The notes under the pieces were generated by a model that did not search any database, was not told the DNA's origin, and was given only the letters and a program-made list of their open reading frames with translations. Below, in pieces: positions 11,430 to 56,630 of a DNA stretch of 59,260 nt (positions are counted from its first letter, which is position 1; each line of letters starts with the position of its first letter). This DNA comes from Bacteroidota bacterium (GTDB lineage: Bacteria > Bacteroidota > Bacteroidia > NS11-12g > UBA955), in NCBI GenBank assembly GCA_016868785.1, contig VGFS01000011.1, positions 1 to 59,260 on the forward strand, read 5' to 3'. Both the position numbers and the translations under genes were made by a program.

Positions 11430-12353
11430 ATGCAGGGAACCGTCACCAAATCCACGGGAAGTTGGTACCATGTGCTAACAGACGATGGAAAAGTGTGGAT
11501 GGCCCGAACCCGAGGCAAACTGAGGTTGAATGACCTAGATACCAGCAATCCAGTAGCCGTGGGTGACCGCGTAGAGATGCAGGCCGATCCAAATTATCCC
11601 GACACCGCCTCCATCTCAAAAGTTGAACCCCGCAACAACTACCTCATTCGTCGTTCGAATAAACTGAGCTCTCGCCGACAAATTTTGGCCACCAACCTCG
11701 ATGGTGCCGCCCTCATCGCCAGTCTTTTTGCACCCAGAACCTCCCTTGGGTTTATTGATCGCTTCATCCTTACCTGCGAAGCATACCACGTTCCCGCCGC
11801 CGTTTTTTTCAATAAAATGGACCTGCTGGGCGATAATGCCGCCGAATTTTTGGCCGATATCCAGCACATCTACCGAAATGCCAATGTAACTGTTTTAATG
11901 GGATCGGCTCGCGACATTCAAACCCTAAAGCCCATGGCTGAACTCCTAGAAGGCAAGCGCTGGTTGTTGGCCGGACATAGCGGTGTGGGTAAAAGTACCC
12001 TCCTCAATGCCATATTTCCAGAGGCCAATGCCCGTGTTGGCAACATTTCAGACCACCACGAAAAAGGGAAACACACCACCACTTTTGCCGAAATGTTCAC
12101 CCTTTCTAACGGCACCCAAATCATTGATACCCCCGGAATTCGAGATTTTGGCGTGGTGGATTTCGAACCCCAAGAAATCAGTCAGTACTTCCCCGAAATG
12201 CGTCCCTACCTCAATCGATGCAAATTCAACGACTGCCAACATACCCATGAACCAGAATGCGCTGTCCTTGCTGCATTGAAAAATGGTGAAATTGCCGAGG
12301 AACGATACCACAGCTATTTGGGAATCCTCAACAACGAAGATATCTTTGAATAG
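11430..12353 (+). CDS. rsgA: Ribosome small-subunit-dependent GTPase A
   Basis: A 307-aa circularly permuted GTPase that matures the 30S subunit. An N-terminal OB-fold (about 1-70) is followed by motifs in permuted order: G4 NKMD (128-131), G1 GHSGVGKS (182-189), G2 region KGKHTT, G3 DTPG (233-236). A zinc knuckle has C264, C269, H271 and C277 (CKFNDCQHTHEPEC). The catalytic-loop signature GIRDFG follows G3. The start is 2 nt after the metF stop. The next gene starts 7 nt after this stop. Confidence 0.96.
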   Translation: MQGTVTKSTGSWYHVLTDDGKVWMARTRGKLRLNDLDTSNPVAVGDRVEMQADPNYPDTASISKVEPRNNYLIRRSNKLSSRRQILATNLDGAALIASLFAPRTSLGFIDRFILTCEAYHVPAAVFFNKMDLLGDNAAEFLADIQHIYRNANVTVLMGSARDIQTLKPMAELLEGKRWLLAGHSGVGKSTLLNAIFPEANARVGNISDHHEKGKHTTTFAEMFTLSNGTQIIDTPGIRDFGVVDFEPQEISQYFPEMRPYLNRCKFNDCQHTHEPECAVLAALKNGEIAEERYHSYLGILNNEDIFE

Positions 12354-18794: not shown

Positions 18795-19775
18795 ATGTCT
18801 TCACCCGAAAACACCGCAACACTGATCCAATCCTACGGTCAAGAAGCCATTCGTCGCGAACTTCAATCGCTGCAAAATCTCATGGTTTATATCAACGATC
18901 AGTTTGCCTCCGTGGTTGAACTGCTCCTCCAACAAAAAGGTCGGGCCATTTTCACCGGCATCGGAAAAAGCGCCATCATCGCCCAAAAAATTGTTGCAAC
19001 CCTGAACAGCACCGGTCAGCCCGCCCTGTTTATGCATGCAGCAGATGCCATCCACGGCGATTTGGGCATGATACAAAGCCATGATGTCATCTTTGCCATT
19101 TCGAAAAGTGGCAATACCCCCGAAATTCAAGCGCTTGCCCCCCTGCTCAAACGCAACAACAACACCTTGGTGGCCATCGTAGGCAACCTACAAAGCCAAC
19201 TTGCGCAACAAGCCGATTTCATACTCAATACCACCATTGATCAAGAAGCTTGTCCCAATGACCTCGCCCCAACAACCAGCACCACCGCCCAATTGCTCAT
19301 GGGCGACGCCCTAGCCATTGCCCTCATTCAAATGCGAGGGTTTAACAGTCAAGACTTTTCCAAATACCACCCTGGCGGCGCCCTTGGAAAAAAGTTATAC
19401 CTCCAATGTGGCAGCATCGCTCAGCAAAACGCCAAACCATTCGTATCGCCCAATACCCCTTGGAAAGAGGTTATCCTCACCATCTCACAGAATCGATTGG
19501 GTGCCACCGCCGTTGTAGACGAAAAAAATCAGATTCTTGGCATCGTAACCGATGGCGATATTCGACGAATGTTGGAAAATAACGAGTCCTTCAGCCACCT
19601 TACCGCAGAACAAATCATGGGGAAATCCCCCATCACCGTTGACGCCAATGCCATGGCTACAGAGGTGGCAGCCCTCATGCAAGAGAAGAAAATCACCCAA
19701 ATGCTTGTAACGCAACAGAGTATTTACTTTGGCGTTGTACATTTGCACGACCTTTACAGAGAAGGTATTTTATGA
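18795..19775 (+). CDS. kdsD: Arabinose-5-phosphate isomerase, KpsF/GutQ family
   Basis: A 326-aa SIS-domain isomerase converting ribulose-5-P to arabinose-5-P, the first step toward KDO for lipid A. SIS core: FTGIGKSAIIAQKIVATLNS, HGDLGMI, SKSGNTPE, and the family motif ALAIALIQMRGF followed by DFSKYHPGGALGK. Two CBS domains occupy about 205-326. The ATGA junction at 19772-19775 couples it to the mannose-1-P guanylyltransferase, an envelope-sugar pair. Confidence 0.93.
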   Translation: MSSPENTATLIQSYGQEAIRRELQSLQNLMVYINDQFASVVELLLQQKGRAIFTGIGKSAIIAQKIVATLNSTGQPALFMHAADAIHGDLGMIQSHDVIFAISKSGNTPEIQALAPLLKRNNNTLVAIVGNLQSQLAQQADFILNTTIDQEACPNDLAPTTSTTAQLLMGDALAIALIQMRGFNSQDFSKYHPGGALGKKLYLQCGSIAQQNAKPFVSPNTPWKEVILTISQNRLGATAVVDEKNQILGIVTDGDIRRMLENNESFSHLTAEQIMGKSPITVDANAMATEVAALMQEKKITQMLVTQQSIYFGVVHLHDLYREGIL

Positions 19776-20854
19776 GCCTGAACAAGAACCATTATGTGTT
19801 GATTATGGCAGGCGGGATCGGCAGTCGATTCTGGCCCGTAAGCAAAAAGAGTTTCCCAAAACAATTCATCGATATCATGGGTACCGGTGAATCACTCATC
19901 AAGCAAACCTACAACCGCTTCTGCCACATGGTGCCCAAAGAAAATATCTATGTGGTTACCAATACAGATTACGTTCCCTTGGTGCAATCACATATCCCCG
20001 ACATGCATATCTCTCAGATTTTGCATGAGCCCTTGGCCAAAAATACTGCGCCTTGTATTGCCTTGGCGAACAGACACATAACCCAAAAAAATCCAGATGC
20101 CGTTTGTCTAGTGGCCCCAAGTGACCACCTAATTAGCAATGAAATGGCCTTCATCGAAACCGCGCAACAGGCCATGAACTTTGCCGGTCAACACGAAGCA
20201 CTGGTAACATTAGGCATCAAACCCACCCGCCCCGATACCGGATACGGTTACATCCAATTTAACCCAGAACTCGATGGCAGTGGACTGCACCGCGTAAAAA
20301 CATTCACCGAAAAACCCAACGAAGACATCGCCAAAAGCTTCCTTGAAAGTGGCGAATTCCTTTGGAATGCAGGCATCTTCGTTTGGAGCATGAAAGCCAT
20401 CAACAACAGTATCGAAAAACACATCCCCGAAATCCACCAGATTTTCGCCGATGTAGATACCCTGGGCAACCGCTATAAAGAACAATTGGAACAAGCCTAT
20501 TCGCTCACCCCAAGTATCAGCATAGACTATGGCGTGTTAGAAAAAGAAAGCGAAGTCTATGTCATGCCCGCCAATTTTGGCTGGAACGACCTTGGCACCT
20601 GGAAAAGCTTGTGGGATGTTTCTGACCGCAACGATAAAAACAATGCCATCGTGGGCAAAAATGTGCATGTCTACAACACCACAGAAAGCTTGGTATTTAA
20701 CAATACCCAAAAGCTCATCGTAGTCAATGGCATCGACAACATCATCATCGTTGAATCGGATGAAGTACTCCTTGTAATGAACAAAGACAAAGAGCAAGAA
20801 TTGAAAACCATTGTGAACGAAATCAAAGATCGCTACAAGGGAAAATTCAACTAG
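19772..20854 (+). CDS. manC: Mannose-1-phosphate guanylyltransferase
   Basis: A 360-aa GT-A nucleotidyltransferase making GDP-mannose from mannose-1-P and GTP. Diagnostic start MAGGIGSRFWPVSKKSFPKQ (residues 12-31) and metal region LVAPSDHLI; FTEKP and WNAGIFVWS follow. It is the short, single-domain form without the PMI cupin fusion, so the name ManC is by function. GDP-mannose feeds mannosylation and fucose or rhamnose sugars in surface glycans. It overlaps kdsD by 4 nt. The next promoter starts 6 nt after its stop. Confidence 0.92.
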   Translation: MSLNKNHYVLIMAGGIGSRFWPVSKKSFPKQFIDIMGTGESLIKQTYNRFCHMVPKENIYVVTNTDYVPLVQSHIPDMHISQILHEPLAKNTAPCIALANRHITQKNPDAVCLVAPSDHLISNEMAFIETAQQAMNFAGQHEALVTLGIKPTRPDTGYGYIQFNPELDGSGLHRVKTFTEKPNEDIAKSFLESGEFLWNAGIFVWSMKAINNSIEKHIPEIHQIFADVDTLGNRYKEQLEQAYSLTPSISIDYGVLEKESEVYVMPANFGWNDLGTWKSLWDVSDRNDKNNAIVGKNVHVYNTTESLVFNNTQKLIVVNGIDNIIIVESDEVLLVMNKDKEQELKTIVNEIKDRYKGKFN

Positions 20855-20859
20855 ATTTT

Positions 20860-20890
20860 TTTGCAATCTAAAGCCAATTTGATATATTTG
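20860..20890 (+). promoter_or_regulatory. Complete Bacteroidota promoter, TTTG-N19-TATATTTG
   Basis: TTTG (20860-20863) and TATATTTG (20883-20890) are separated by 19 nt, the textbook Bacteroides spacing. It is the only box in the window where I find a correctly spaced -33 element. Transcription would start at about 20895, the first base of a hairpin. Confidence 0.75.
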
Positions 20891-20894
20891 TAGT

Positions 20895-20980
20895 GTTATC
20901 GGTTATTCCGATAACGCCAACTGTTACGCGCTTTTATATACCAACATCCTGGCCGCTTTAATCAGCGGCCTTGATTTTTT
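20895..20980 (+). ncRNA. Candidate small RNA or attenuated leader (about 85 nt)
   Basis: Hairpin 1 is a perfect 8-bp stem, GTTATCGG (20895-20902) with CCGATAAC (20908-20915), loop TTATT, and it begins 4 nt after the -7 box. About 35 unstructured nt follow. Hairpin 2, GGCCGCT (20951-20957) with AGCGGCC (20964-20970), is followed by TTGATTTTTT. There is no ATG inside. It could be a free small RNA or an attenuator for the EamA gene starting at 20989. I recognise no Rfam family. Confidence 0.45.
20951..20980 (+). terminator. Rho-independent terminator before the EamA gene
   Basis: A 7-bp GC-rich stem, GGCCGCT/AGCGGCC, with loop TTAATC, and a run of six T starting 4 nt after the stem. It ends 9 nt before the EamA start. 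It would end both the manC transcript and the candidate RNA. Confidence 0.65.
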
Positions 20981-20988
20981 AAAAGGGT

Positions 20989-21945
20989 ATGCAAAATTCC
21001 ACCACCCCCCGAACCAAAGCCTTTATCGCGCTGCACAGCGCCGTCTTCCTGTGGGGTTTCACCGCGATCCTCGGCAAGTTCATTTCCTACGGATCCCTCT
21101 CCCTGGTATTGCATCGTATGTCGATTACTGCCGCTATCTATTTGCTGCTGCCCAGCGTTTGGAAACAACTCAAATCACTTACCCCAAAAACCATCCTCTC
21201 CTTCGCCGGAATCGGTTTAATCGTTTGCGCACACTGGATAACCTTTTACGGATCCATCAAACTCGGTAACTCTGTTTCTATCACACTTGCCTGCCTGGGG
21301 TCCGCCTCGTTTTTCGCAGCCATCATTGAACCCACCATCTTCAGAAAACCCTTTTCCCAAAGAGATATCCTCATGGGACTCATCGTCATGCTCGGTATTG
21401 GGTTCATCTATTTCTCCCTGCCGCCGCAACCCACCATCGACAACAACATTTCTTATGGCTGGGCCATAATCACCGGCATTCTCAGCGCAGCCCTGGCTGC
21501 CACCTTTACAACACTCAATAAAAAATACATCCATTCTGCACCCACTTTGGCCATTTCTACCATCGAAATGATCTCGGGTGCTGTCTTCCTTAGCCTCATC
21601 ATCGCCCTATTACCAACTGCAGATTACCACCCGCTGCCCAGCATCAACCCATCAGTTCTCACCCTTGAAAACCTGCAAAGCGGTCCGTGGGATTTTGTTT
21701 GGATTGGCCTCCTCGCCATGCTCTGCACCAACCTTACCTTTTATCTTGGCACATACGCCCTCAAGCAACTTTCAGCCTTCACCGCAAACCTTACTGTAAA
21801 CCTCGAGCCCATCTATGGCATCGTTTTGGGCGCCCTTATCTTCAAAGAAAATAAAGACCTTAACCTATACTTCTACCTAGGCGCTTGCATCATTCTTGGG
21901 GCGATATTCACCCAAGCCATCCTCTCCGCGAGAGAGAAAAATTAA
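20989..21945 (+). CDS. EamA/DMT-family transporter
   Basis: A 318-aa inner-membrane protein with about ten hydrophobic helices in two EamA repeats (about 10-145 and 165-310). First-repeat marks: [20 protein letters not shown] and [19 protein letters not shown]. Second-repeat marks: [19 protein letters not shown], the usual EamA helix-9 motif. The family exports metabolites such as amino acids or nucleotides; the substrate is unknown. AAAAGGG 1-8 nt before ATG is one of the few Shine-Dalgarno-like leaders here. Its stop shares TTAA with the convergent proS. Confidence 0.88.
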
Positions 21946-23420
21946 TACGCTTTGGCGAAAACTACCCGACCTTGACTCGGCTTTCCCGTTAAGATACATA
22001 CCCCTGTCTCAGACGCTTGGTCCATCGGTATACAACGTATGGTGGCCTTGGTCAATTCCTTGATTTTCTCCTCTGTTTCACCGCTGCCATCCCAATGGGC
22101 AAAGGCAAAACCCTCTTTCTCATTGATTGCTACTAAAAACTCATCCCAAGTGTTCACAACATGCATCTTTTCAGCACGATATTGGGCCGCCCGATCAAAC
22201 AAATTCGTTTGAATTTCATCCATCAAGGTCAAAATTCTCGCCTGCAAATCACTCATGGGCACCACAAATTTCTCTTTGGTATCCCTGCGCGACACTTCCA
22301 CACTTTGTGATTCTAAATCGCGCATCCCCACCGCCAAACGTACAGGCACCCCCTTCAATTCCCACTCGGCGAATTTGAAACCGGGCTTGTAGGTATCGCG
22401 GTCGTCGAATTTTACCGTTAATCCGGCTTGCTTCAATTGGGCCGACAAAGGCTTCATGGCCTGTTTGATTTTTTCCAAATCCTCATCGCTGCGATATACA
22501 GGCACAATCACCACATGAATGGGTGCCAATTTCGGTGGCAATACCAACCCTTCATCATCGCTGTGCGCCATGATCAATGCACCCATCAATCGTGTAGATA
22601 CCCCCCAACTGGTGGCCCACACATGCTCCAACTTGCCCTCTTTACTCTGAAATTTCACATCAAATGCCTTGGCGAAATTCTGTCCCAAAAAGTGACTGGT
22701 ACCCATCTGAAGCGCTTTTCCATCCTGCATCATCCCTTCGATGCAATAGGTATCATCCGCGCCCGCAAAACGTTCGTTTTCGGTTTTAACCCCTTTAATT
22801 ACTGGCACAGCCATGAAATTCTCCGCGAATTCAGCATACACATCCAACATTTTCTTGGTTTCTACCAACGCCTCTTCCTTGCTGGCATGCGCTGTATGTC
22901 CCTCTTGCCACAAAAACTCAGCAGTGCGCAAGAATAAACGCGTGCGCATTTCCCATCGGACCACATTGGCCCATTGATTAATCAGGATGGGTAGGTCGCG
23001 ATAGCTCTGAATCCAATTTTTATAAGTGTTCCAAATGATCGCTTCTGAGGTTGGACGTACAACGAGTTCTTCCTCCAATTTTGAGTCGGGATCGGCCATC
23101 AACTGTCCGGGCTTATCGGGATTGGCTTTCAGGCGATAGTGGGTAACCACCGCACATTCCTTGGCGAATCCTTCGGCATTTTTTTCTTCTTTTTCGAAAA
23201 GGCTTTTCGGTACAAACAGCGGAAAATACGCATTCACGTGTCCCGTTTCTTTGAACATGTCATCGAGCTGTCTTTGCATCTTTTCCCAGATGGCATAGCC
23301 ATAGGGTTTGATGACCATACAACCTTTAACGGCACTGTGTTCGGCCAGGTCTGCATTTTTGACCAGGTTGTTATACCACTCACTGTAATTGTCGCTGCGT
23401 TTTACTTTTTCAAATGCCAT
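21942..23420 (-). CDS. proS: Proline--tRNA ligase, archaeal/eukaryotic-type (ProS type 3)
   Basis: A 492-aa class II synthetase without the bacterial INS editing insert. Seen: motif 2 region [20 protein letters not shown], the TSEAIIW substrate loop ([15 protein letters not shown]), anticodon-binding domain [20 protein letters not shown], and a C-terminal zinc-like domain ending in VVFAKAY, the terminal Tyr typical of this type. It charges tRNA-Pro in the cytosol. TAACTTTG lies 11 nt before ATG, and a strong terminator separates it from nrdJ upstream. Confidence 0.96.
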
Positions 23421-56519: not shown

Positions 56520-56537
56520 AACAGGGAAAATAAAAAA

Positions 56538-56618
56538 GGCGGTATCGCGCCGCTACAACCTATTGTCCTTGCTGCCTTCCGGCCCTGGGGAAGTGAACAG
56601 GGAGCTGGCCGTACCGCC
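56538..56618 (-). ncRNA. ffs: SRP RNA (4.5S type, bacterial small form)
   Basis: Read on the minus strand, the terminal helix is GGCGGTA (5') with TACCGCC (3'). The conserved SRP domain-IV core is present (CCAGGGCCGGAAGGCAGCAA), with the GGAA tetraloop and the asymmetric loop that binds Ffh. The 3' end is followed by TTTTTT. A -7 box (TACTTTTG, 56623-56630) ends 4 nt before the first base. It guides membrane-protein targeting with Ffh/FtsY. On the plus strand this locus lies in the 3' region of the DEAD-box transcript. Confidence 0.93.
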
Positions 56619-56622
56619 GGTG

Positions 56623-56630
56623 CAAAAGTA
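56623..56630 (-). promoter_or_regulatory. -7 box (TACTTTTG) for the SRP RNA
   Basis: An exact TAnnTTTG match on the minus strand, then CACC, then GGCGG, the first base pair of the RNA's terminal helix. This fixes the box-to-start distance at 4-5 nt for the window. Confidence 0.75.

Follow-up and report, generated by a model that had tools for sequence, protein, structure and literature searches.

Does the short gap between the manC and eamA genes at this locus encode a free small RNA, or a leader that keeps the downstream transporter gene off by default? Either possibility had been put forward in the original prediction, which was made from the letters of the window, that is, the whole 59,260-nt stretch of DNA analysed here. 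The gap holds a complete small transcription unit (20860-20980) composed of a promoter, a stem-loop, an unpaired segment and a terminator, and it lies in a conserved gene order as follows.

18795-19775, + strand: kdsD-like (KpsF/GutQ family) sugar-phosphate isomerase gene, member of the conserved gene order
19772-20854, + strand: manC, mannose-1-phosphate guanylyltransferase-like, upstream neighbour of the RNA
20860-20890, + strand: promoter, with -33 element TTTG at 20860-20863, 19-nt spacer and -7 box TATATTTG at 20883-20890
20895-20915, + strand: stem-loop 1, perfect 8 bp with a 5-nt loop (GTTATCGG-TTATT-CCGATAAC), predicted 5' end of the RNA
20917-20950, + strand: core, 34 nt, unpaired in the predicted fold and nearly invariant, in two blocks (20917-20933 and 20941-20950)
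20951-20980, + strand: intrinsic terminator, with a 7-bp GC-rich stem at 20951-20970 and the tail TTGATTTTTT at 20971-20980
20989-21945, + strand: eamA, EamA/DMT-family transporter gene downstream of the RNA (PF00892, E 2.6e-22)

A predicted promoter and small RNA unit

The promoter TTTG-N19-TATATTTG, the perfect 8-bp hairpin and the T6 terminator were all found where the original prediction had placed them, and the element contains no ATG, as it had also said. The RNA has a predicted length of 86 nt (84-92 nt in 21 distinct homologues), and the fold of 20895-20984 has a z score of -4.72, with 0 of 200 shuffles equally stable. Only 8 nt separate the end of the T6 run at 20980 from the eamA ATG at 20989. 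As to what the transporter carries, the sole NCBIfam match lies far under its cut-off.

In its exact form, the promoter occurs once in the window (0.0 expected from 20 shuffles). A looser form, TTTG-N18..20-TAnnTTTG, also matches at 12317 (+) and 53147 (-), against 1.3 expected in all; both additional matches touch long open reading frames. Generic scans of 19000-23000 gave no excess over shuffles, either for sigma-70-type promoters (5 found, 5.5 in shuffles) or for terminators (5 found, 4.9 in shuffles). Because such pattern scans stand at shuffle level, they say little by themselves, and it is the comparative evidence that decides whether the element is real.

In Flavobacterium psychrophilum, the -7 box spans -12 to -5, according to PMC9723704. 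On this spacing, +1 coincides with the opening base of the hairpin, 20895, in agreement with the start originally predicted, and transcription should thus begin at the base of stem 1. The arrangement is preserved in the homologues described below. Of 38 carrier genomes, 36 have a TAnnTTTG box within the 40 nt preceding the core, the exceptions being G010, which has TATATTCG, and G086, where the contig ends. All but one of 21 distinct homologues (20) have TTG 17-21 nt upstream of the -7 box, and stem 1 starts 4 nt past the box in all 21 distinct copies.

Conservation, structure and distribution

A blastn search with 20850-20995 returned close matches in relatives, and a covariance model constructed with 13 copies matched 38 of the 70 family genomes, in 7 of 14 genera; among genomes with at least 90% completeness and at most 5% contamination, the count was 26 of 42. 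The covariance search that had been proposed for related genomes recovers the RNA in over half of these genomes of the family, which is known here from metagenome-assembled genomes only. Stem 1 and the promoter, whose absence from relatives had been named as grounds for doubt, are kept in close and in more distant relatives alike. A search of 108 genomes of the order returned the same 38 matches and none in the 38 genomes outside the family (a number obtained by subtraction, under stricter filters). With a laxer model search, a set of 38 genomes that lack the RNA gave ten weak hits (E 0.14-0.92) in nine of them, four of which were inspected: L103, L102, L104 (by alignment) and L105 (by score only). 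L103 sits within a long open reading frame, and L102 is a terminator that adjoins an apparent tRNA (by eye). A class-level sample of 395 genomes yielded the source genome, one other family member and G276, the last a chance-like hit (35.7 bits) that matches mostly in the terminator.

The RNA appears to be single copy, second matches in G009 and G081 being contig ends that repeat the same stretch, and the family, order, class and laxer searches found it at no place other than this locus. A mobile origin finds no backing either: the exact core pattern is absent from viral contigs, and blastn gave no match in plasmids or phages. One copy, in G076, combines core substitutions with a stem mismatch and looks degenerate. 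In four genomes (G009, G081, G086 and G091), contigs of the metagenome assemblies break in or beside the RNA (L200, L201, L202, L093; G009:C126, G009:C44), perhaps because co-occurring species share an identical core; at one G081 contig end, an unrelated tail follows the core.

Covariation was examined in 25 aligned copies, 21 of them distinct. In stem 1, six of the eight pairs change on both sides, the compensatory changes that the original prediction would have taken as a sign of a functional RNA. Standard pairs fill 97.9% of pair cells in the 25 copies; shuffles reach 89.9% and slid controls 33-49%. Cells changed on both sides number 26, compared with 6.3 in shuffles. The covariation score was reached by 0 of 500 shuffles, a shuffle number that is not to be read as a probability, and the alignment was fitted to the structure of the model and so leans towards it. 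The same pattern is visible in the raw sequences, where the arms differ yet pair (GTTATCGG/CCGATAAC, GTTACTT/AAGTAAC, GCTGCCG/CGGCAGC), while loop 1 varies in both length and sequence. All cells of the terminator stem (100%) are paired in the alignment. RNAalifold, run on the same alignment, returned the same two helices plus three pairs at the terminator base, and its consensus has no pairing in the core except for the last bases at the foot of the terminator. Judged by these changes, stem 1 is maintained for structure, not sequence.

The core behaves in the opposite manner. Between the seven genera, its mean pairwise identity is 94.1%, whereas the same comparison gives 46.8% for stem 1, 30.8% for the 60 nt leading up to the -7 box and 25.3% for the 40 nt downstream; for manC, identity by codon position is 68, 80 and 39%. 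Six versions of the core occur in the 38 genomes. Nineteen genomes carry that of the window, and seven have one linker base different. In a further six, the core has gained one base and shows one substitution; it is longer by four bases in four genomes, which belong to a single genus; and substitutions peculiar to each are present in G010 and G076. Both blocks begin with CCAAC and are joined by an A/T-rich linker. From this comparison, the core is maintained for its sequence, and the predicted fold leaves it unpaired. Contact with a partner in trans would best account for a segment at once invariant and unpaired.

No Rfam 15 family matched over the RNA at gathering score, whether in the window, in a permissive search of 20600-21300 or at eight homologous loci, which bears out the earlier remark that no matching family was known, and the exact 13-base core string is absent from the literature searched. 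Elsewhere in the window, at 56534-56625 (-), Rfam gives a match to the Bacteroidales small SRP RNA (RF04183, 65.6 bits). On the strength of the genome comparisons, the element appears to be a real RNA and the candidate family new, though its kind is known; it is represented neither in Rfam 15 nor in the literature as far as searched.

A probable terminated leader of eamA, or possibly an RNA acting in trans

Gene context is where the two original possibilities, each in keeping with the covariation and with the conserved promoter and terminator, begin to part. The manC gene lies upstream of the RNA in 36 of 38 genomes, the contigs of G086 and G091 ending first, and in 37 of the 38 the start codon of eamA, an ATG or GTG assigned from the reading frame, lies 6-32 nt past the T-run; the synteny of hairpins and eamA that had been singled out for checking is thus borne out. 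A TAnnTTTG box between stem 1 and the eamA start was found in 0 of 38 genomes. With no such -7 box, and no room for a flavobacterial promoter after the terminator, eamA seems to depend on read-through. This default-off leader geometry is kept in six of seven genera. The seventh is represented by G025, in which the RNA, with an intact terminator, is separated from eamA by a patatin-like gene (named by eye; L069:4288-5049). The stop of that gene falls directly before the eamA start, and a weak -7-like box precedes the gene.

Among 25 RNA-less genomes searched, 21 gave a manC match, and eamA followed manC within 0.6-1.5 kb downstream in 0 of the 20 that were readable. Two genomes of the same genus, G008 and G013, retain manC-eamA with 67 nt between the genes and no RNA. 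In midpoint-rooted trees of 42 manC rows and 26 eamA rows, the carriers together with G008 and G013 form one group, with support of 91/90 and 98/96, respectively, so that one gain and one loss suffice to account for the distribution. In G026, which lacks the new RNA, manC is followed at a short distance by a cobalamin riboswitch (RF00174, 91.5 bits; L191:2677-2900).

The account that we favour, at slightly better than even probability, is that this non-coding RNA of about 86 nt, made from its own sigma-A-type promoter, is the prematurely terminated 5' leader of eamA, and that its core is a docking site for a partner in trans. Transcription would start at the base of stem 1, which would cap the 5' end and stabilize the RNA; most polymerases would halt at 20980 and free it; and eamA would be expressed only by those that read through the terminator, because no promoter fits between the terminator and the start codon. 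The core may contact a protein or another RNA that sets read-through, uses the freed RNA as a regulator, or both. What speaks for this account, besides the conservation, covariation and core identity given above, the unvarying locus and the trees that need one gain and one loss, is the terminator between the promoter and the eamA start together with the missing TAnnTTTG box after stem 1 in the 38 genomes. Against it we count the manC-eamA pairs of G008 and G013 that do without the RNA, the inserted gene of G025 and the lack of a conserved antiterminator. Where the core pairs with the 3' arm of the terminator, the register differs across genera and the helix dwindles to 4 bp in two genomes; in 15 of 15 copies tried, the terminator fold is the stronger. 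This fold test covers antitermination by RNA pairing. One candidate antiterminator, CGCGCUUUU with AAAAGCGCG, was rejected: it forms a perfect 9 bp in G029 and G017 only, gives 4-8 bp elsewhere, partly in other registers, and is absent in the source genome.

A purely trans-acting base-pairing small RNA, with the core as seed and eamA merely downstream on leaky read-through or manC run-on, is the main competitor, which we hold to be well short of even in probability. The sequence features form a canonical layout for such an RNA (a promoter of its own, a capped 5' end, a conserved core left unpaired and a strong terminator), the core is invariant without a conserved antiterminator, and G025 retains the RNA beside another gene. 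The source genome has neither an Hfq match nor an RRM_1 match (one of the control genomes, Bacteroides ihuae, does have an RRM_1 match), and GibS of Bacteroides, which PMC7366714 describes as conserved and mostly single-stranded at positions 1-38, likewise belongs to a host without obvious Hfq. The same reading leaves the fixed position 6-32 nt before eamA unexplained. A target search that covered 36 start regions of the window, 15 genes with orthologues and, in 12 genomes, two seed patterns left no conserved target standing. Complements of block 2 are slightly commoner outside the RNA than those of the reversed control (43 versus 34), but complements of block 1 are rarer (18 versus 41, 12 genomes), and among all block-1 matches and 30 of 53 block-2 matches, taken on the sense strand, no conserved gene has a match. 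The best of the 36 window starts was that of rsgA (named by eye; 11430-12353), with a z score of -3.75. Tried against eight rsgA orthologues (row L219 was excluded from the rsgA averages), the window's core gave a mean of -19.4 versus -13.3, with 1 of 2400 mononucleotide and 0 of 2400 dinucleotide shuffles equally strong, and with this core rsgA was the strongest of the 15 genes with orthologues. When each genome's own core was used, the nine-genome mean beat 400 of 400 shuffles; this signal is owed to the window and the two relatives closest to it. As a conserved target, rsgA was rejected, own-core z scores being -0.9 and +0.2 in two genomes of the same genus and -0.3 to -1.8 in four genomes of other genera.

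Three further readings fare much worse. A transporter gene downstream, a terminator that could serve as expression platform and strongly conserved nucleotides would all suit a metabolite-binding riboswitch with stem 1 and the core as its aptamer, a reading that we nevertheless consider very unlikely: the core has no consensus pairing and hence offers no conserved structured aptamer, there is no conserved alternative fold and no Rfam match, and loop 1 varies in length and sequence, which leaves a loop-core pseudoknot of the small-riboswitch type unsupported. Ribosome-coupled attenuation through a leader peptide, to which a terminator-ended leader before a structural gene might point, is less probable again, and we give it hardly any weight. 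Besides the missing ATG, length differences in the stem-loop are not multiples of three, and the core linker takes insertions of one base in 6 of 38 genomes and of four bases in 4 of 38 with the rest of the core unchanged; these indels, and core blocks that are fully conserved whatever the codon position, led us to reject coding in the element. That the hairpins arose by chance, or are merely the terminator of a kdsD-manC operon, would fit the generic promoter and terminator scans, which show no excess over shuffles here. All of the comparative results (38 of 70 genomes, covariation, core identity and eamA spacing) speak against it, and we regard it as next to negligible.

Between leader and free RNA, then, gene geometry favours the terminated leader of eamA, whose released product may also serve as an RNA in its own right. 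A more ambitious proposal is that the RNA exemplifies a new Bacteroidota class of regulatory leaders, in which an unstructured 34-nt core is read by an RNA-binding partner and transporter expression is coupled to release of a small RNA in the absence of Hfq or RRM_1 matches; we offer this as speculation and think it rather unlikely.

Relation to known systems

The analysis adds a candidate RNA family that is missing from Rfam 15 and is backed by covariation in 25 copies (21 distinct). With a core that is unpaired and hardly ever changes, in a genome that lacks Hfq and RRM_1 matches, the RNA provides a testable case of how small RNAs might find their partners without known chaperones.

The best sub-threshold Rfam match, BjrC1505 (RF02356; 20.2 bits against a gathering score of 50, E 0.22), shares hairpins and a GC-rich terminator with the new RNA; that family is alphaproteobacterial, and we take the match as chance. 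Terminator-type leaders, such as attenuators and riboswitches, have in common with it their own promoter, a conserved segment and a terminator that closely precedes the start of a transporter gene, but the conserved antiterminator, structured aptamer or leader peptide of such leaders was not found here. Rfp18 of Flavobacterium psychrophilum is, like this RNA, a small RNA conserved within its group, there a flavobacterial one; in contrast to the present case, it is predicted to pair through its third stem-loop, a comparison made by description only, from PMC9723704. GibS of Bacteroides thetaiotaomicron is another Bacteroidota RNA with its own promoter, an intrinsic terminator and a host without obvious Hfq. 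The conserved single-stranded segment of GibS takes up positions 1-38, and that of the new RNA 34 nt; GibS is about 145 nt long with the unpaired part at its 5' end, whereas here this part follows a 5' hairpin, again as compared by description only, from PMC7366714. By this analogy, GibS would be the nearest working model if the freed 86-nt RNA carries its core to other mRNAs.
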